Assembly: GCA_903847335.1 (NCBI GenBank) | Contig: CAINDI010000025.1 | Span: forward strand, 1 to 36,263 | Length of the DNA: 36,263 nt | Source of the DNA: an uncultured Verrucomicrobiota bacterium | GTDB lineage: Bacteria > Verrucomicrobiota > Verrucomicrobiia > Palsa-1439 | Direction of reading: 5' to 3' | Part shown: positions 1 through 36,199 of the stretch, in pieces | Layout: each line of letters starts with the position of its first letter | Numbering within the stretch: position 1 is the first letter of the stretch | Notes under the pieces: model-generated | What the model saw: the letters and a program-made list of their open reading frames with translations, nothing else | What the model was told of the DNA's origin: nothing | The model's database searches: none | Program-made: the position numbers and the translations under genes

Positions 1-256
1 GCAATATTATCTCCGGCGCGGTCACGTCGATAGCATCGGCATCGGGCGTGTCGTCCTCAGCTATCCGCGCATCATTGTGGATGCGATTGAGAAAGGTGAT
101 CTGGAACGGAAATTGATTTGCCGGACATTCAGCGATTGCACCACCGCGCCGCGCAACGGCATGATTAGCGGCTGCTATCCGCTGGACGATTACTACAAAC
201 AGAAACCGGAAGCGGCCCAAGTGAAACAAGTCAAACTCACCATGGGAAAACCATGA
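1..256 (+). CDS. C-terminal part of a flavin (Old Yellow Enzyme-like) oxidoreductase, truncated by window start
   Basis: An open frame runs from base 2 to the TGA at 254-256, giving about 84 residues with no start in the window. The segment VGIGR-like (DSIGIGRVVLSYPRI) followed by a Cys-containing stretch (ICRTFSDCTTAPRNG) and a GCYPLD tail resembles the end of NADH:flavin oxidoreductases, where the final FMN-binding strand is followed by a cysteine region. Its stop overlaps the start of the next gene (ATGA), so the two are translationally coupled and probably act in the same pathway on an enone or keto substrate. The family call rests on remembered C-terminal patterns only; the FMN-binding barrel is outside the window. 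Confidence 0.6.
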   Translation, partial: QYYLRRGHVDSIGIGRVVLSYPRIIVDAIEKGDLERKLICRTFSDCTTAPRNGMISGCYPLDDYYKQKPEAAQVKQVKLTMGKP

Positions 257-972
257 AACGCGTCGCGCTCGTCACCGGTGGTAGTCGTGGAATTGGTCTT
301 GGCGTCGCGCAGGCGTTGTTGAAGGACGGTTTTGAAGTTGCGATTTGCGGTGTGCGCCCGACGTGCGACTTGAAAGAATTTTTCTACTGCCAATGCGATG
401 TCAGCGATGCCGGCGCGCGCGCCAAAATGCTCGCCGCGCTCCGGCAACGGTTTGGCCGGCTGGATGTGCTCGTCAATAATGCCGGCATCGCACCGAAAGT
501 GCGCGCCGATATTCTCGACGCCACGGAAGAAAGTTTTGCGGAACTCATTCGCACCAATCTCCAAGGTCCATATTTTCTCACGCAAGCCGTCGCGAAGTGG
601 ATGATCGCCCAGAAATCCGGTTGCATCATCAACGTCTCCTCGATTTCCGCGAGCGTCGCCTCGGTGAACCGGGGCGATTATTGCATCTCCAAAGCCGGCG
701 TCGCGATGGCTACGCAACTCTGGGCCGCTCGACTCGGCGAATTTAACATCCCGGTGTATGAAGTTCGCCCCGGCGTCATCAAGACCGACATGACATCCGT
801 TGTGACTGAAAAATACGACAAACTTCTCGCCGGTGGTCTCACGCTCCAAGCCCGGTGGGGATTACCGGAAGATGTCGGCAAAGCCGTGGCGGCGTTGGCG
901 CGCGGCGATTTCCCGTATTCCACCGGTCAAGTGGTGCTGGTGGACGGCGGTCTGACTGTTCAGCGATTGTAA
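253..972 (+). CDS. SDR-family NAD(P)-dependent oxidoreductase (3-ketoacyl-ACP reductase-like)
   Basis: A 239-residue classical short-chain dehydrogenase, the normal length for the family. Visible motifs are the Rossmann glycine motif TGGSRGIG near residues 8-15, the NNAG motif after strand 4 (around 75), the catalytic Ser in the NVSSIS segment (about 129), and Tyr-x-x-x-Lys in DYCISKAG (about 143-147). The C-terminal PYSTGQVVLVDGG segment is also typical. It would reduce a carbonyl or oxidise an alcohol with NAD(P)H in the cytoplasm; the substrate cannot be told. The ATG overlaps the stop of the upstream flavin oxidoreductase by four bases. The reductase pairing suggests sequential reduction of one metabolite. 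Confidence 0.9.
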   Translation: MKRVALVTGGSRGIGLGVAQALLKDGFEVAICGVRPTCDLKEFFYCQCDVSDAGARAKMLAALRQRFGRLDVLVNNAGIAPKVRADILDATEESFAELIRTNLQGPYFLTQAVAKWMIAQKSGCIINVSSISASVASVNRGDYCISKAGVAMATQLWAARLGEFNIPVYEVRPGVIKTDMTSVVTEKYDKLLAGGLTLQARWGLPEDVGKAVAALARGDFPYSTGQVVLVDGGLTVQRL

Positions 973-1102: not shown

Positions 1103-2812
1103 TTACTGAAGGTGGATTGCCGTAAAGGAATAAACTTCGTAAATTCCGATTTCAGTGTTTTTGCTTTCGGTTTTATGTTTATTCACAATCGGTAACCGAT
1201 AACTATTATGTCCAGTCAATTCATAATTCACATTCATCGCTGACAGCCATTCCGCAAAAGCCAAATCATTCCGCTGGGATTGGTTTGAATGTGATAGAAC
1301 ACACCGGAGGTTTTTTGGATTAGCGGATAAGAGATCGGATAAACTATAGAAATGGATTCTCTGGTGGTCATACATTGCCCGGTAGCAGGGATAGGAGGGT
1401 TCAAGATAAGTCGCGCCTGAAGGTGGGCTGTAGAGTTGAATGTGTAAGTCCAAATCAATACAAACATTTTGGATACTTGGGTTTTCTATCCAGAACCACT
1501 GCGCAAAATTTCGGTGGATTACAGTTCCTATCGTTTTATATGGATTGGCAATTACAGCGGCTAAACTAGCGGCTCCGGCACCCCAAAATAAAAAGCAAAT
1601 TAACCAACGTAATAGACGTTCTTGCCAGTGACTTTGACGAAGCCATGAAATTGATTGGGCAATTCCCAGCCCCATAAGCAAGCAGATGGATGGGGCGAGA
1701 TATTGCACTAGCCGCGCGACATTTCCAAATGGATAACGTTGCATTCCTGCTGCCACTAGGCCAAGGGCAATCATCGCGAGTGTCAATGTCGCCAGCCATC
1801 GCTGTTTGCTGTGCCATAAAACACAGAAACCAACTACAAAAAATACAAAGGTTGCCGAGTTCCATGGTGGAGTTCGCAATTCCCAAGGATAACCCATAAT
1901 TCCTCCGCAAAACGTACGGAGCAACCAAAGCGGTAATTGAAGCGGGTGTGAAATTGGTGGAAAGCCTTCATTCCAACATTCAAGCATATCGTGTCGGACA
2001 CCATCATATTGAGGGCCGACGATGAATTTCAATAGCACTAGAAATGTGACTACTAAAACACAAAGGAAGACAATAAATGTCCACCAGACTCGCTTATCTC
2101 GACTACGCCAAACCGGTAACGCGAGCGTAATTCCAATGGCTCCAGCGGTGAAGACGGAGGTGAATGAAATCGACAAAGCTACCGGAATAAAAACTACCAA
2201 TGCCCACAACTGGCGTGTTTTTATTGGTGTGTGTTGTTGGGGGGGGGGGGGGGCAACGGATAATTTTTGCCAAAATTCGTAGGCCACACTGATGAGAATG
2301 AGAGTAACGAACAAATCAAGACTGTAGGGTTTTACTTCAGCGCTGTAGCGAATCAAAGTATGGGCCAGCGAAAAGACTGCGACAGCGAGCACTAAGCTCG
2401 GACCCGTAAGAATTTTGTGGGCTAACCGGACAAACAAAGCCAGACTAGCGACGCCGGCAATCACTGCCACAAATCGGAGGGAATGTTCACTAAAACCGAA
2501 TAACTTGGTCATTAACAATTCCCCCCAAAGAAATGAAATTGGGGCGACTTGGTTAAAGTGCAGAGTTTTGGTTAGTTGCACATAGTTTGCATTCACTAGG
2601 TTTGCTGCCAACATTGCTTCATCACCACTTAAGGGGAGACGCAGTAAATATTGCACTATGCGTAATACGACTCCCAACGCAAAAAAAGCCATGACCCATT
2701 GGTTCGCACCTGAAAATGTTCGTGGCAAGGGGATTTTTTTACTGGGATAAGGTAATCCTTGATTTGTTGTGTCTACGTGCGGAGATATAAAATCTGTCTG
2801 TTGTTTATTCAT
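1103..2812 (-). CDS. GT39/ArnT-like polytopic membrane glycosyltransferase containing a 15-C homopolymer
   Basis: A 569-residue protein with roughly ten or more hydrophobic segments. After a first membrane segment (about 38-58) comes an acidic GDE at residues 63-65, the position of the catalytic Asp-Glu in the first extracytoplasmic loop of GT-C enzymes such as ArnT and protein mannosyltransferases. It probably transfers a sugar from a polyprenyl-phosphate donor to a lipid, glycan or protein at the outer face of the inner membrane. The C-terminal 150 residues are a soluble domain. A run of 15 C on the coding strand encodes the prolines near residues 187-191, between membrane segments. The gene is more AT-rich than its neighbours and lacks their CCGG abundance, hinting at horizontal transfer. 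It stands alone, with no operon partner. Confidence 0.75.
   Translation of the reverse strand: MNKQQTDFISPHVDTTNQGLPYPSKKIPLPRTFSGANQWVMAFFALGVVLRIVQYLLRLPLSGDEAMLAANLVNANYVQLTKTLHFNQVAPISFLWGELLMTKLFGFSEHSLRFVAVIAGVASLALFVRLAHKILTGPSLVLAVAVFSLAHTLIRYSAEVKPYSLDLFVTLILISVAYEFWQKLSVAPPPPQQHTPIKTRQLWALVVFIPVALSISFTSVFTAGAIGITLALPVWRSRDKRVWWTFIVFLCVLVVTFLVLLKFIVGPQYDGVRHDMLECWNEGFPPISHPLQLPLWLLRTFCGGIMGYPWELRTPPWNSATFVFFVVGFCVLWHSKQRWLATLTLAMIALGLVAAGMQRYPFGNVARLVQYLAPSICLLMGLGIAQSISWLRQSHWQERLLRWLICFLFWGAGAASLAAVIANPYKTIGTVIHRNFAQWFWIENPSIQNVCIDLDLHIQLYSPPSGATYLEPSYPCYRAMYDHQRIHFYSLSDLLSANPKNLRCVLSHSNQSQRNDLAFAEWLSAMNVNYELTGHNSYRLPIVNKHKTESKNTEIGIYEVYSFTAIHLQ
2239..2253. repeat. 15-base G homopolymer (C on coding strand) inside the glycosyltransferase gene
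   Basis: Fifteen consecutive G on the plus strand, read as C in the coding strand of the GT39-like gene, where they complete an Ala codon, form four Pro codons and begin a Gln codon. A tract of this length is expected to gain or lose bases by slippage. At 15 the reading frame is intact; a change of one or two bases would truncate the protein after about one third of its length. Confidence 0.9.
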
Positions 2813-2974: not shown

Positions 2975-3355
2975 TTACCGGGCCGCGATGACTTCGATTT
3001 CGACGAGCGCGTCTTTCGGGAGGCGGGCGACTTGGACGGTGGAACGCGCGGGGAAATCGCCGGTAAAGAATTTCGCGTAGACTTCGTTCATCGCCGCAAA
3101 ATGATTCATGTCCGCCAGAAAAACGGTGGTTTTGATGACGTGGGCGAAATCGAGGTCTTGCGATTCCAGCACGCCGCGAATGTTTTCGAGGACGCGCACG
3201 GTTTGTTCGACGACGCCACCGGCGACGAGATTACCGGTGGTGGGGTCGAGCGGAATTTGACCGGCGCAAAAGAGGAAGTCACCAGCCCAGACAGCTTGTG
3301 AGTACGGGCCGACAGCTTTCGGTGCGGCGGTGGTGGAAACGATTTTGCGATTCAT
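2975..3355 (-). CDS. ridA: RidA family reactive intermediate deaminase (YjgF/YER057c/UK114)
   Basis: A 126-residue protein, the usual RidA length. The N-terminal AVGPYSQAV segment, the central FCAGQIPLDP segment, and the near-terminal PARSTVQVARLPKDALVEIE segment, which carries the conserved arginine that binds the carboxylate of imine/enamine substrates, are all present. RidA hydrolyses reactive 2-aminoacrylate-type enamines formed by PLP enzymes and protects cytosolic proteins. It is the last gene of the minus-strand operon, three bases after the MauE-like gene, so it is probably co-transcribed with the rhodanese. One of two RidA-superfamily proteins in the window. Confidence 0.95.
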   Translation of the reverse strand: MNRKIVSTTAAPKAVGPYSQAVWAGDFLFCAGQIPLDPTTGNLVAGGVVEQTVRVLENIRGVLESQDLDFAHVIKTTVFLADMNHFAAMNEVYAKFFTGDFPARSTVQVARLPKDALVEIEVIAAR

Positions 3356-3358
3356 AGT

Positions 3359-3763
3359 TTATTCCTTATACCAAAATGTTAGCCAACCGGCGGCAATCAG
3401 TAGTGCGAAATCTTCTGCGAGTGCGGTCAGGCCAACTTTGCGGGCTTCGAGTGTGCTGAAACAACCGCAGCGAATGTCGAGGTGTCGGTAAATCGCTTGA
3501 CCGATGCCGGCCAGAAAAATCACCATCAGCACGGTAATCAGTAGTGCGCTAGGTCGTTTCCAGATTCCGGCGATGAGTAAACTGCCGGCGAGCACTTCCA
3601 CCCACGGCAAGGTAATGGCGACGAGATTGACGAGCGTCTCCGTCAGCAATCGGTAATTCGCAATGTCGCCGGCAAAGCTGGCTGGATTCCAAATCTTCAA
3701 CACGCCAGCCACCACAAAGACGCCGCCGACAATGAACCGGAGAATAAAGTGGAAAGTTTTCAT
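3359..3763 (-). CDS. MauE/DoxX-family redox-associated membrane protein
   Basis: A 134-residue protein with four hydrophobic segments (about 5-22, 45-65, 70-90 and 110-130), the topology of DoxX and MauE. A Cys-Gly-Cys-Phe motif occurs in the loop between segments three and four (about residues 98-101), as in MauE-type proteins thought to help maintain thiol redox state in the envelope. Its start overlaps the rhodanese stop (ATGA). The DUF1573-rhodanese-MauE order is one I associate with Verrucomicrobiota and Bacteroidota. Exact substrate is unknown; the family name and the CxC motif are what the sequence supports. Confidence 0.8.
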   Translation of the reverse strand: MKTFHFILRFIVGGVFVVAGVLKIWNPASFAGDIANYRLLTETLVNLVAITLPWVEVLAGSLLIAGIWKRPSALLITVLMVIFLAGIGQAIYRHLDIRCGCFSTLEARKVGLTALAEDFALLIAAGWLTFWYKE

Positions 3764-4224
3764 GGCTTGTCACCGGTCGTGGTGGTGAAGCCAGCTTGAT
3801 GCCAAACAGTCCAGCCGTTTTGCAGGACGCGGACATTTTGGTAATGGAGTTGCCGGAGGCGCGCGGTGAGGTGATGGCTCAAATCGCATTGCAAACCGTC
3901 GCAGTAAGTCACGATGGCGGTGTCGGGCGCGAGAATGGTGGCGATTTGCGGATAGCGGGCGTCGAATTCTTCCGCCGGTAGGTTGTACGCGCCGGCAATG
4001 TGACCGGCGGCGTAATCGGCCGTTGCGCGGGCGTCGAGGAAAAATGTCGCGCCGGTTTGCCAGAGTTGTTTGGCGTCGGCGAGCGAAATGAAATCCGTCG
4101 GTTGCGGCGCCACTTTCGGCGCGGCGATGTAGGGAATGCGGCGTGGCGAAATTAAATTATCGGCCAATCCCAGCACCGCCCCGGCGCAGGCAATCACGAG
4201 CGCCCGCTGAAGGTTATGCGCCAT
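3760..4224 (-). CDS. rhodanese-like domain protein with an N-terminal membrane anchor or signal
   Basis: 154 residues. The N-terminus (ALVIACAGAVLGLADNLI) is hydrophobic, suggesting export or anchoring. A single rhodanese domain occupies about residues 40-150: the DARATADYAAGHIAGAYNLP segment is the conserved first half, and the active-site loop reads YCDGLQCDLS (about 107-116), with the catalytic Cys at the start of the loop. The closing NGWTVWHQAGF is typical. Such proteins transfer sulfane sulfur or act as persulfide carriers. The gene starts eight bases after the DUF1573 stop and overlaps the MauE-like start, so the three are co-translated. Confidence 0.9.
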   Translation of the reverse strand: MAHNLQRALVIACAGAVLGLADNLISPRRIPYIAAPKVAPQPTDFISLADAKQLWQTGATFFLDARATADYAAGHIAGAYNLPAEEFDARYPQIATILAPDTAIVTYCDGLQCDLSHHLTARLRQLHYQNVRVLQNGWTVWHQAGFTTTTGDKP

Positions 4225-4232
4225 GCCGGCGG

Positions 4233-5249
4233 TTAGTTGCGACGCAGAACATTGATGGTGAATGGAATTTCGACCACCGGTTGTTTTTTGAAATTCGTCT
4301 CGAACCGGACGGTGCCGGCGATGGATTCCTTCGGCACTTTATCGAGCACGGCAACGATTTCAAATTTGCCATCGGCACTCGGATTGAGAGTGACTTTGAG
4401 ATCGGCCACGGTGGACGAGAGATTGGTGATTTCAAGTTTCTGGTCCGGTACACTGGAGCTGACGATGACGCGGCGCGTGGTGCTGGCGGCGCCTTGCGGG
4501 CCGGGCCAATTTTCTGGATCGGGAATTCCCCAAACGAGCTGCTGCGGTGTGAGGAAAACATCGCCGACGATTTGGCCGCTCACCGGAATAATCAACAGCG
4601 GCCGGCTGGCGTCTTCGCCGTGGATATTCACCGTGTTATTGAACCGGCGCGCGACGCCGTCCGCGACGATTTCCACACGAACGGTCAGCGCATTGGTGCC
4701 GCCTTCGGATTTCTCAATTGTCGGATGGATGTGCGCGGCATTGGCGTCCACCGTTTTAATGCCGATGGGTTTGCCGTCGGTGCGTTTGATTTGAATGGTG
4801 AGGTTGGTGGTCGTGCCGAGGCGGAGGTGGCCGACATCCAGCGCTTGCGGGTTGTATTCAAACGCCGGGACGATTTCGACTCGGATTGTCAGCCGCGAAG
4901 CTTGGTTGCTGGGGTCATTGGAGGGAATGGTAATTTGTTTTTCGATGATGCCGCGCGGAATGCTGACATTCATCGTGAATCCGAGATCCGTCTTTTCGCC
5001 GGGGGCCAGTTTATCCACCGTGAGCGCGGCAATGGTACAACCGCACGACGTGGCCGGTTTGCCTAGCGTCAACTGCGCGTTACCGGCGTTCGAAATCACA
5101 AAAGTTCCGGCGACTTGCTGCACCATCGCGGTGCTGCCGAAGTTGTACACCATTTTATCGAACACGATTTTCGGCGTGCCGGTCTCGTCCGCTTGGCACA
5201 CGCTCCAACTCACGCCAATCAACATTGCGATACTCAATAAACGTTTCAT
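4233..5249 (-). CDS. exported DUF1573 domain protein
   Basis: 338 residues with a signal peptide (MKRLLSIAMLIGVSWSVCQA), cleaved after about residue 20. A DUF1573 module follows at about 25-110, with the diagnostic YNFGST start and the SCGCT motif, then two further immunoglobulin-like beta segments to the C-terminus (about 115-210 and 240-335). DUF1573 domains are ASH/MSP-like sandwiches found on envelope proteins; no enzymatic role is established. It is the first gene of the operon with rhodanese, MauE-like and RidA genes. AGGAG sits seven bases before the ATG, one of the clearest ribosome sites in the window. A candidate promoter lies at 5283-5311. Confidence 0.9.
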   Translation of the reverse strand: MKRLLSIAMLIGVSWSVCQADETGTPKIVFDKMVYNFGSTAMVQQVAGTFVISNAGNAQLTLGKPATSCGCTIAALTVDKLAPGEKTDLGFTMNVSIPRGIIEKQITIPSNDPSNQASRLTIRVEIVPAFEYNPQALDVGHLRLGTTTNLTIQIKRTDGKPIGIKTVDANAAHIHPTIEKSEGGTNALTVRVEIVADGVARRFNNTVNIHGEDASRPLLIIPVSGQIVGDVFLTPQQLVWGIPDPENWPGPQGAASTTRRVIVSSSVPDQKLEITNLSSTVADLKVTLNPSADGKFEIVAVLDKVPKESIAGTVRFETNFKKQPVVEIPFTINVLRRN

Positions 5250-5329: not shown

Positions 5330-6058
5330 CTAAAACTTAAAAATCCAATCGTGCGCCAGATATTGATTCGTGGCGAGCGCGGTAATTTTCGCCACTGGTA
5401 ACTCGCGAAGCAATTCATCGGCTTGCCAGCCGTGCCGGAGCGCGATTTGGATTTTTGCGCCGGCTACTCCGAGATTCACCAGAAAATCTTTGTGCGGCCG
5501 ATGGTGCCGGTACGTCGGCTCGCGCGACGGCAATGGCAGCAGGCGTTCAACGCGCTCCACATCAAGGTTCAGCAGAAAACTACCGTGGAAAAGCAAATGC
5601 TGCCGCCGGCGACGTTGAGCGTTGCCGGAAAATTTCAAGTCGCCCAGCGTCAAATCGCTGTGGCCTTGGACGCAAACCGTTCCGATTCCATTGCCCACCA
5701 CCGGTGTAAGAAGTTGCCGGTGTTTTTCCATGATGAATTCGTTGGTCGAGCGGATGTGGGCGAGGGGACCGGTCTCCGGTATCCGCAAAATCAGCGAGTA
5801 ATTCAGGCAACCCGGTCCTTGCAAAACCGAACCGCCACCGGTGCAACGCCGCAAGACCGAGACGCCGTCGTGCCGGGCTTGGTCGAGATTGGCTTCAGTG
5901 CGAATTTTGTTGGAGTAGCCGAGGACGAGAAAATGCTCCGGTGGTTGCCAGACACGCAGGATTTCGCCGGCGTGACCGGCTTCGGCGAGGTCGAGCAGCA
6001 CTTCATCGCAAGCGAGATTCTCCGCCGGCGTTGGCAATGTGAGGTCGAGAAATTGCAC
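5330..6058 (-). CDS. lplA: lipoate-protein ligase A family protein
   Basis: 242 residues from the GTG at 6058; in-frame ATGs at 6106, 6124 and 6148 would lengthen it, but the family begins near QFLDLTLPTPAENLACDE, just after this GTG. The motif RRCTGGGSVLQGPGCLNYS is the lipoyl-AMP binding segment of LplA/LipM proteins, and LGDLKFSGNAQRRRR carries the conserved catalytic lysine (GDLKFSGNA). It attaches lipoate (or octanoate) to E2 or H proteins in the cytosol. It is divergent from aceE, whose complex requires a lipoylated E2, so a shared control region is likely. The longer starts would overlap the aceE start. Confidence 0.9.
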   Translation of the reverse strand: MQFLDLTLPTPAENLACDEVLLDLAEAGHAGEILRVWQPPEHFLVLGYSNKIRTEANLDQARHDGVSVLRRCTGGGSVLQGPGCLNYSLILRIPETGPLAHIRSTNEFIMEKHRQLLTPVVGNGIGTVCVQGHSDLTLGDLKFSGNAQRRRRQHLLFHGSFLLNLDVERVERLLPLPSREPTYRHHRPHKDFLVNLGVAGAKIQIALRHGWQADELLRELPVAKITALATNQYLAHDWIFKF

Positions 6059-35335: not shown

Positions 35336-35426
35336 GGAGAGGTGGCCGAGTGGTTGAAGGCGCCGGTCTCGAAAACCGGTATAGGCTCATGGTCTATCGA
35401 GGGTTCGAATCCCTCCCTCTCCGCCA
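35336..35426 (+). tRNA. tRNA-Ser (anticodon CGA), CCA encoded
   Basis: 91 bases. The acceptor arms GGAGAGG (35336-35342) and CCTCTCC (35416-35422) pair perfectly, followed by discriminator G and an encoded CCA. The D-arm has the serine-type GGCCGAGTGG, the anticodon stem CCGGT/ACCGG encloses the loop CTCGAAA with anticodon CGA (reads UCG), a long variable arm follows as expected of class II tRNA, and the T-arm is GAGGG-TTCGAAT-CCCTC. It lies 17 bases before the inositol-monophosphatase gene. Confidence 0.97.
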
Positions 35427-35443
35427 ATTTGAAAGAAATTAAC

Positions 35444-36199
35444 ATGCTTGAAACTGCGATCGCTGCCGCCTCTGCCGCTGGTAAGTTGCTGAAACAAAAC
35501 TTCGGCACCAAACTCGACGTCAATGCCGCGACACAACACGACATCAAGCTCGCGCTCGACGAACAGGCGCAGGCGCTCATCACTCGCGTCATTCTTGCCG
35601 ATTTCCCCGACCATTGTATTCTCGGCGAGGAAGCCATCACCGGCAACCAGCAGGCCGATGTGCGCTGGGTGGTGGATCCGCTCGACGGCACGGTGAATTA
35701 TTTCTACAACATTCCGCATTACGCCGTGAGCATCGCGGCCCAGCAACGCGTCGGCGACCGGTGGGAAACCGTGGCTGGTGTGGTGCTCGACCCGGAACGC
35801 GATGAATTATTCACCGGAGCTAAAGGTCAGCTACCGGCATTAAACGGCCAACCGATTCACGTGAGCGACCGAGCAGAACTTTCGCAAGCTATTGTGAGCA
35901 TCGGCTTTTTCAAAAACGAGGAAACCATTCGCAAAAGTTTGGTGAATTTTCAAAACTTGATTGGCCGCGTCCGCAAAATGCGCTTGATGGGCGCCGCCGC
36001 GCTCGACGTGGCGTACGTCGCCTGTGGCCGGTACGACGCTTACATTGAACACGGCATCAAGCTCTGGGACATTTGCGCCGGGCAATTGATTCTCGAACTC
36101 GCCGGCGGTCAAGTTACCAGTGCGCCGACCGGTGAAGCGCATACATTAGATGTGCGGATGTGGAATGGCAAACTGCCGGTCGAGGCATTGGTGCAATGA
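35444..36199 (+). CDS. suhB: inositol-1-monophosphatase family protein
   Basis: 251 residues from the ATG at 35444; the frame runs back through the tRNA but that is not translated. Li-sensitive phosphatase motifs are present: the GEEA motif (about 63-66), VVDPLDGTVNYFYNIPHYAVS (about 78-98) with the metal-binding Asp-x-x-Asp-Gly-Thr, and WDICAGQLILELAGG (about 208-222). These enzymes hydrolyse inositol phosphates and related sugar phosphates; SuhB also acts with rRNA antitermination in E. coli. It follows the tRNA closely and its stop overlaps the next start (ATGA), so it is coupled to the truncated membrane protein. Confidence 0.93.
   Translation: MLETAIAAASAAGKLLKQNFGTKLDVNAATQHDIKLALDEQAQALITRVILADFPDHCILGEEAITGNQQADVRWVVDPLDGTVNYFYNIPHYAVSIAAQQRVGDRWETVAGVVLDPERDELFTGAKGQLPALNGQPIHVSDRAELSQAIVSIGFFKNEETIRKSLVNFQNLIGRVRKMRLMGAAALDVAYVACGRYDAYIEHGIKLWDICAGQLILELAGGQVTSAPTGEAHTLDVRMWNGKLPVEALVQ

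Follow-up and report, generated by a model that had tools for sequence, protein, structure and literature searches.

Does a run of fifteen identical bases within a bacterial membrane protein gene act as a contingency switch, by which single cells turn the protein on and off, or did it arise passively, or by an error of the assembly? The question is raised by a homopolymer in the window, i.e. the whole stretch of 36,263 nt of Verrucomicrobiota DNA analysed here, which, according to the preliminary description, could render a surface glycosyltransferase phase variable. The gene and the tract are:

1103..2812, minus strand: 569-aa polytopic membrane protein, weakly PMT_2/GT-C-like, with a D64 E65 motif; 44.6% GC
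2239..2253, minus strand: C15 homopolymer (G15 on the plus strand), residues 187-192; proposed slipped-strand switch

The C15 tract and its reading frame

Direct reading and a script agree that positions 2239-2253 of the plus strand consist of exactly 15 G. On the coding strand, the tract reads GCC CCC CCC CCC CCC CAA (A-P-P-P-P-Q, residues 187-192); four Pro codons lie entirely within it, and it is in frame in the open reading frame 1103..2812. It was proposed that an in-frame tract encodes prolines in a loop between membrane helices, and the arrangement GCC (CCC)4 CAA, located in a loop between two hydrophobic segments, bears this out. The same holds for the expected effect of slippage: when one base is computationally removed from or added to the tract, a product of 196 or 236 aa results instead of 569 aa. 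Tract, frame and truncation can thus be read from the sequence.

The tract is not random. It comprises 15 bases, the second-longest G run in the window has 5, and only 0.0036 G/C runs of at least 15 are predicted genome-wide by a first-order Markov model whose parameters come from the window. It is the longest G/C run of the genome (assembly G000: 2,346,829 bases in 177 contigs), in which just four G/C runs of at least 9 are found (G15 on contig C25, which is the tract discussed here, G11 on C8, G10 on C60 and G9 on C47) versus about 14 expected under the same model for the whole genome. For A/T runs of at least 10, the corresponding genome-wide figures are one observed and about 28 expected. 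Since both kinds of runs stay far below the Markov expectation, the genome otherwise avoids long homopolymers.

Alignment of five sequences, namely the 569-aa protein and four distant homologues from the same class, revealed that the tract encodes part of a loop insert, which is missing from all four homologues. This insert being unique to the 569-aa protein among the sequences aligned, in-frame changes of its length should be tolerated, whereas a change by a single base truncates the product.

A possibly GT-C-like membrane protein, probably acquired recently

The assignment of the protein to surface glycosyltransferases is weak. In its favour, the four homologues (21-25% identity) keep D64, E65, Q88, E159 and Y163, and the DE motif (D64 E65) in the first loop is invariant in 5/5 aligned sequences. 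This pattern of conserved residues, in which the first loop carries the acidic motif, weakly suggests a GT-C-like enzyme. On the other hand, the match to Pfam PMT_2 (PF13231), covering residues 91-255, is sub-threshold (E 0.0017; 19.1 bits versus a cut-off of 26.1), and neither NCBIfam nor a sequence search against solved structures (PDB) returned a match for the 569-aa protein. An AlphaFold2 single-sequence model (mean pLDDT 42) was too poor to judge a GT-C fold; at this low confidence, it too places the tract between two hydrophobic segments. The likeness to PMT_2/ArnT-like GT-C glycosyltransferases (PF13231) consists of the numerous hydrophobic segments and of a first loop bearing the DE motif; the differences are the score below cut-off, the low identity to the homologues and the additional Pro loop at the tract.

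The gene is placed between the following neighbours:

253..972, plus strand: SDR / 3-ketoacyl-ACP reductase, on the opposite flank of the low-GC gene
2975-3355, minus strand: RidA (cluster 2975..5249)
3359-3763, minus strand: DoxX-like protein (cluster 2975..5249)
3760-4224, minus strand: rhodanese (cluster 2975..5249)
4233-5249, minus strand: DUF1573-like protein (cluster 2975..5249)

Its GC content of 44.6% compares to about 56% around it, and its GC3 of 0.42 to about 0.62 in the neighbouring genes. Genome and contig searches rendered no ortholog in its family and no close relative, and the RidA-DoxX-rhodanese-DUF1573 block is kept in most family members without an adjacent glycosyltransferase-like gene. 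Taken together, low GC, the missing family ortholog and a neighbouring block usually kept without the gene indicate that it is probably a recent arrival. No relative of the 569-aa protein was found among phages or in IMG/VR, which leaves the idea of a phage-borne seroconversion gene unsupported. At the far end of the window, tRNA-Ser(CGA) (35336-35426, plus strand) overlaps the beginning of the open reading frame given as 35342-36199; the inositol-monophosphatase-like gene there must therefore start downstream of the tRNA.

Two further tracts disrupt methylase genes

Only three G/C runs of at least 10 exist in the genome: one in the gene of the 569-aa protein, one in a gene for a Type IIG-like enzyme and one in a gene for an N6_N4 methylase. 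The latter two genes are both out of frame in the assembly, with the frame change exactly at the tract; loci and disruption alike are direct observations.

L017:4149-6597 (contig C8): Type IIG-like restriction-methylase (HSDR_N + N6_Mtase); G11 at 6127-6137 of L017 and 21126-21136 of C8
L019:5279-6227 (contig C60): N6_N4 DNA methylase; C10 (G10) at 5435-5444, where the frame breaks
L019:4515-5279 (contig C60), minus strand: DUF6996/DUF6997 protein adjoining the methylase, with a PD-ExK-looking 'VEAKSG' stretch

In the Type IIG-like gene, G11 is found at the end of a 672-aa open reading frame with an N6_Mtase domain and a weak HSDR_N domain, the latter below its cut-off, and a different frame encodes the remainder of the enzyme. 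When the two parts are joined at the tract, the protein aligns in one piece to an intact enzyme from a Geobacillus plasmid (37.5%, residues 2-386 of 393), whose gene has G/C runs of at most 3 at the matching position; single-piece homologues likewise span both sides of the tract. The locus adjoins an IS1595 transposase and a ParE-like toxin gene, and a search of 285 other genomes of the class yielded no match to it at E <= 1e-60. In the N6_N4 methylase, the G10 tract lies in the DPF-GGG-TT motif, and the adjacent DUF6996/DUF6997 protein is perhaps its restriction partner. The G9 run (L018) was set aside, as it is in frame and belongs to a Mu-like prophage gene; its contig, C47, carries Portal_Mu and an integrase, and the run is placed within a Gly/Thr-rich repeat protein.

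That the only other tracts of at least 10 in the genome break methylase genes exactly at the tract gives slipped-strand switching its strongest support. It also gives substance to the initial reading of C15 as a contingency locus, as the genes with these other long poly-G tracts belong to classical contingency classes and lose their frame where the tract lies.

Recurrence in the methylase family and in the class

Comparatively, the strongest case for the evolution of homopolymer switches in this clade is made by the N6_N4 methylase, examined as a set of 25 homologues from the class. In another genus (G008), a methylase with 84% identity has its DPF-GGG motif likewise encoded by a tract, here G11, and it too is out of frame. 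In another family (G037), C14 precedes the HPTQKP motif and the frame changes exactly there; this 3.0-Mb genome has one G/C run of at least 11 in the class scan, and the methylase C14 is such a run. A C10 in the same region is found in frame in G005. Altogether, 4/25 homologues have tracts of at least 10, at two different sites (loci L019, L184, L287 and L283), while the 21 others have no comparable run near the motif, and neither do the four motif-bearing IMG/VR copies whose relationship is confident. At the family rate of about 1 per Mb (38 G/C runs of at least 10 in about 36.5 Mb), about 0.03 such tracts would be expected in 25 genes, far fewer than the four observed.

This pattern cannot be generalised to every long tract of the class. 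Among the roughly 75 tracts of at least 10 pooled over the class, glycosyltransferases were no more frequent in tract-bearing genes than in the genes next to them, and a class-wide concentration of long poly-G tracts in surface genes, which was tested, is unsupported. Frame changes were found at 13/85 tracts (15%) versus 8.4% at random sites under a strict rule, a weak excess. Lacking glycosyltransferase enrichment and showing only this weak excess, many of the long tracts in the class are probably not switches. Individual candidate switches were nevertheless noted: C11 just after the start of a DegT/DnrJ/EryC1 sugar aminotransferase gene in the same genus (L133:1499-1509) and, in the same family, a GT2 gene with C11 coding for prolines (L178:2499-2509) as well as a B12-binding/radical-SAM gene broken in two at a G15 tract (L181:2502-2516). 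One genome of the class (G270) contains 185 G/C runs of at least 11 (94 + 91), far above every other.

Weighing the explanations

Slipped-strand phase variation would best explain the C15 tract, which would then be one of three switches in the genome; we put the probability of this reading at about 0.72. A rather unlikely alternative is that the gene, a recent acquisition, is under weak constraint or decaying, and that the tract expanded passively in a Pro-rich loop tolerant of such changes and slips without any selected role. The low-GC character of this newcomer without a family ortholog would fit such a history, as would the position of the tract in an insert and the absence of category enrichment among the tracts of the class. 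Against it stand a reading frame that is intact through 569 codons, the location of all three G/C runs of at least 10 in classical phase-variable gene classes, and the recurrence of the methylase tract, at two sites, across several lineages.

Caution should also be exercised regarding the assembly, a draft of 177 contigs with an estimated contamination of 4.45%. Homopolymer lengths are error-prone, and some poly-G runs in other genomes of the class are found at contig ends; the tract or its length could derive from poly-G artefacts of the reads, from the collapse of a repeat or from chimeric joining. That it numbers precisely 15 bases is indeed uncertain. An artefact as such is nonetheless improbable: the tract is contig-interior and in frame, an independent genome carries a tract of this kind at the corresponding motif of its methylase, and the join at the tract is real, because both the PMT_2 match and the homologue alignments cross it. 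We give least credence to programmed transcriptional slippage or ribosomal frameshifting, in which one allele of constant DNA length would yield two products. Long homopolymers can induce polymerase slippage, and both methylase genes are out of frame but otherwise intact, as such a mechanism would allow. In the glycosyltransferase-like gene, though, the frame is already open, so that slippage would merely cost protein, no use can be recognised for the truncated form, and the tract lengths and frame states of the methylases vary between lineages.

Proposed mechanism and ecological meaning

Under slipped-strand switching, C15 would serve as a contingency switch in a GT-C-like membrane glycosyltransferase, presumably using lipid-linked sugars. 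With 15 bases, the gene would be in frame (ON); slippage in vivo by one or two bases would leave an inactive truncated product of 196-236 aa (OFF), and a further slip could restore the reading frame (ON). The two putative DNA-methylation/restriction enzymes would represent the other poly-G switches, caught OFF in the assembly. A clonal population might in this way randomly vary a glycan, whose likely acceptor is in the cell envelope, together with its restriction/methylation state, and the most plausible benefit would be bet-hedging, with phages as the supposed selective agent.

The lifestyle of the organism bears on this last point. The preliminary description drew its parallel from host-associated bacteria, a setting that finds no support here: the best relatives of AceE are mostly Verrucomicrobia MAGs from peat, lakes, soil and similar open environments. 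Given such relatives, immune escape is an unlikely driver, and pressure by phages or grazers is likelier. Most of the contingency loci known come from host-adapted bacteria, and a search of the literature for such loci in freshwater MAGs found nothing relevant; what we describe is most likely a known kind of element, of the same design, in an unusual lifestyle, a claim that metagenome reads already in existence could test directly. The broader idea, that a small poly-G phasome of one envelope glycosyltransferase and two restriction/methylation enzymes serves free-living Verrucomicrobiota as coupled bet-hedging against phages and that one DNA-methylase family of the class repeatedly evolved homopolymer switches, including one in the catalytic glycine motif, is put forward tentatively, as a possibility for which we would not claim even odds.

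Comparison with known systems

Homopolymers have been argued to be general switches (PMC2831843), and within the phylum the phenomenon is less novel than the wording 'little described' implied: phase variation was earlier proposed for Akkermansia muciniphila, whose capsule genes contain G8 and C10 tracts (PMC3048395). Both cases share the phylum and the mononucleotide repeats proposed as switches, but A. muciniphila is a gut symbiont, its tracts are shorter and, in the part of the source available to us, the proposal is made without evidence of frame disruption (PMC3048395). Simple-repeat ON/OFF switching of DNA methyltransferases is the hallmark of phasevarions (PMC7394358), which the Type IIG-like and N6_N4 methylase loci resemble in their proposed repeat-switched methyltransferases; the N6_N4 locus differs in that the repeat itself codes for the glycines of the DPF-GG motif.

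The closest parallel in design is offered by Campylobacter jejuni, whose genomes each contain 12-29 tracts: poly-G/C tracts are found in reading frames, mostly of glycan enzymes. The Type IIG gene cj0031c has one as well; its phase variation altered phage restriction, and its homologues often are tract-free (PMC4889913). In both organisms a glycan enzyme, here a putative one, and a Type IIG or Type IIG-like enzyme carry tracts that set, or would set, the ON or OFF state by frame. In contrast to C. jejuni, the Verrucomicrobiota genome has only three G/C tracts of at least 10 and belongs to an apparently free-living organism, and its putative glycosyltransferase is GT-C-like.
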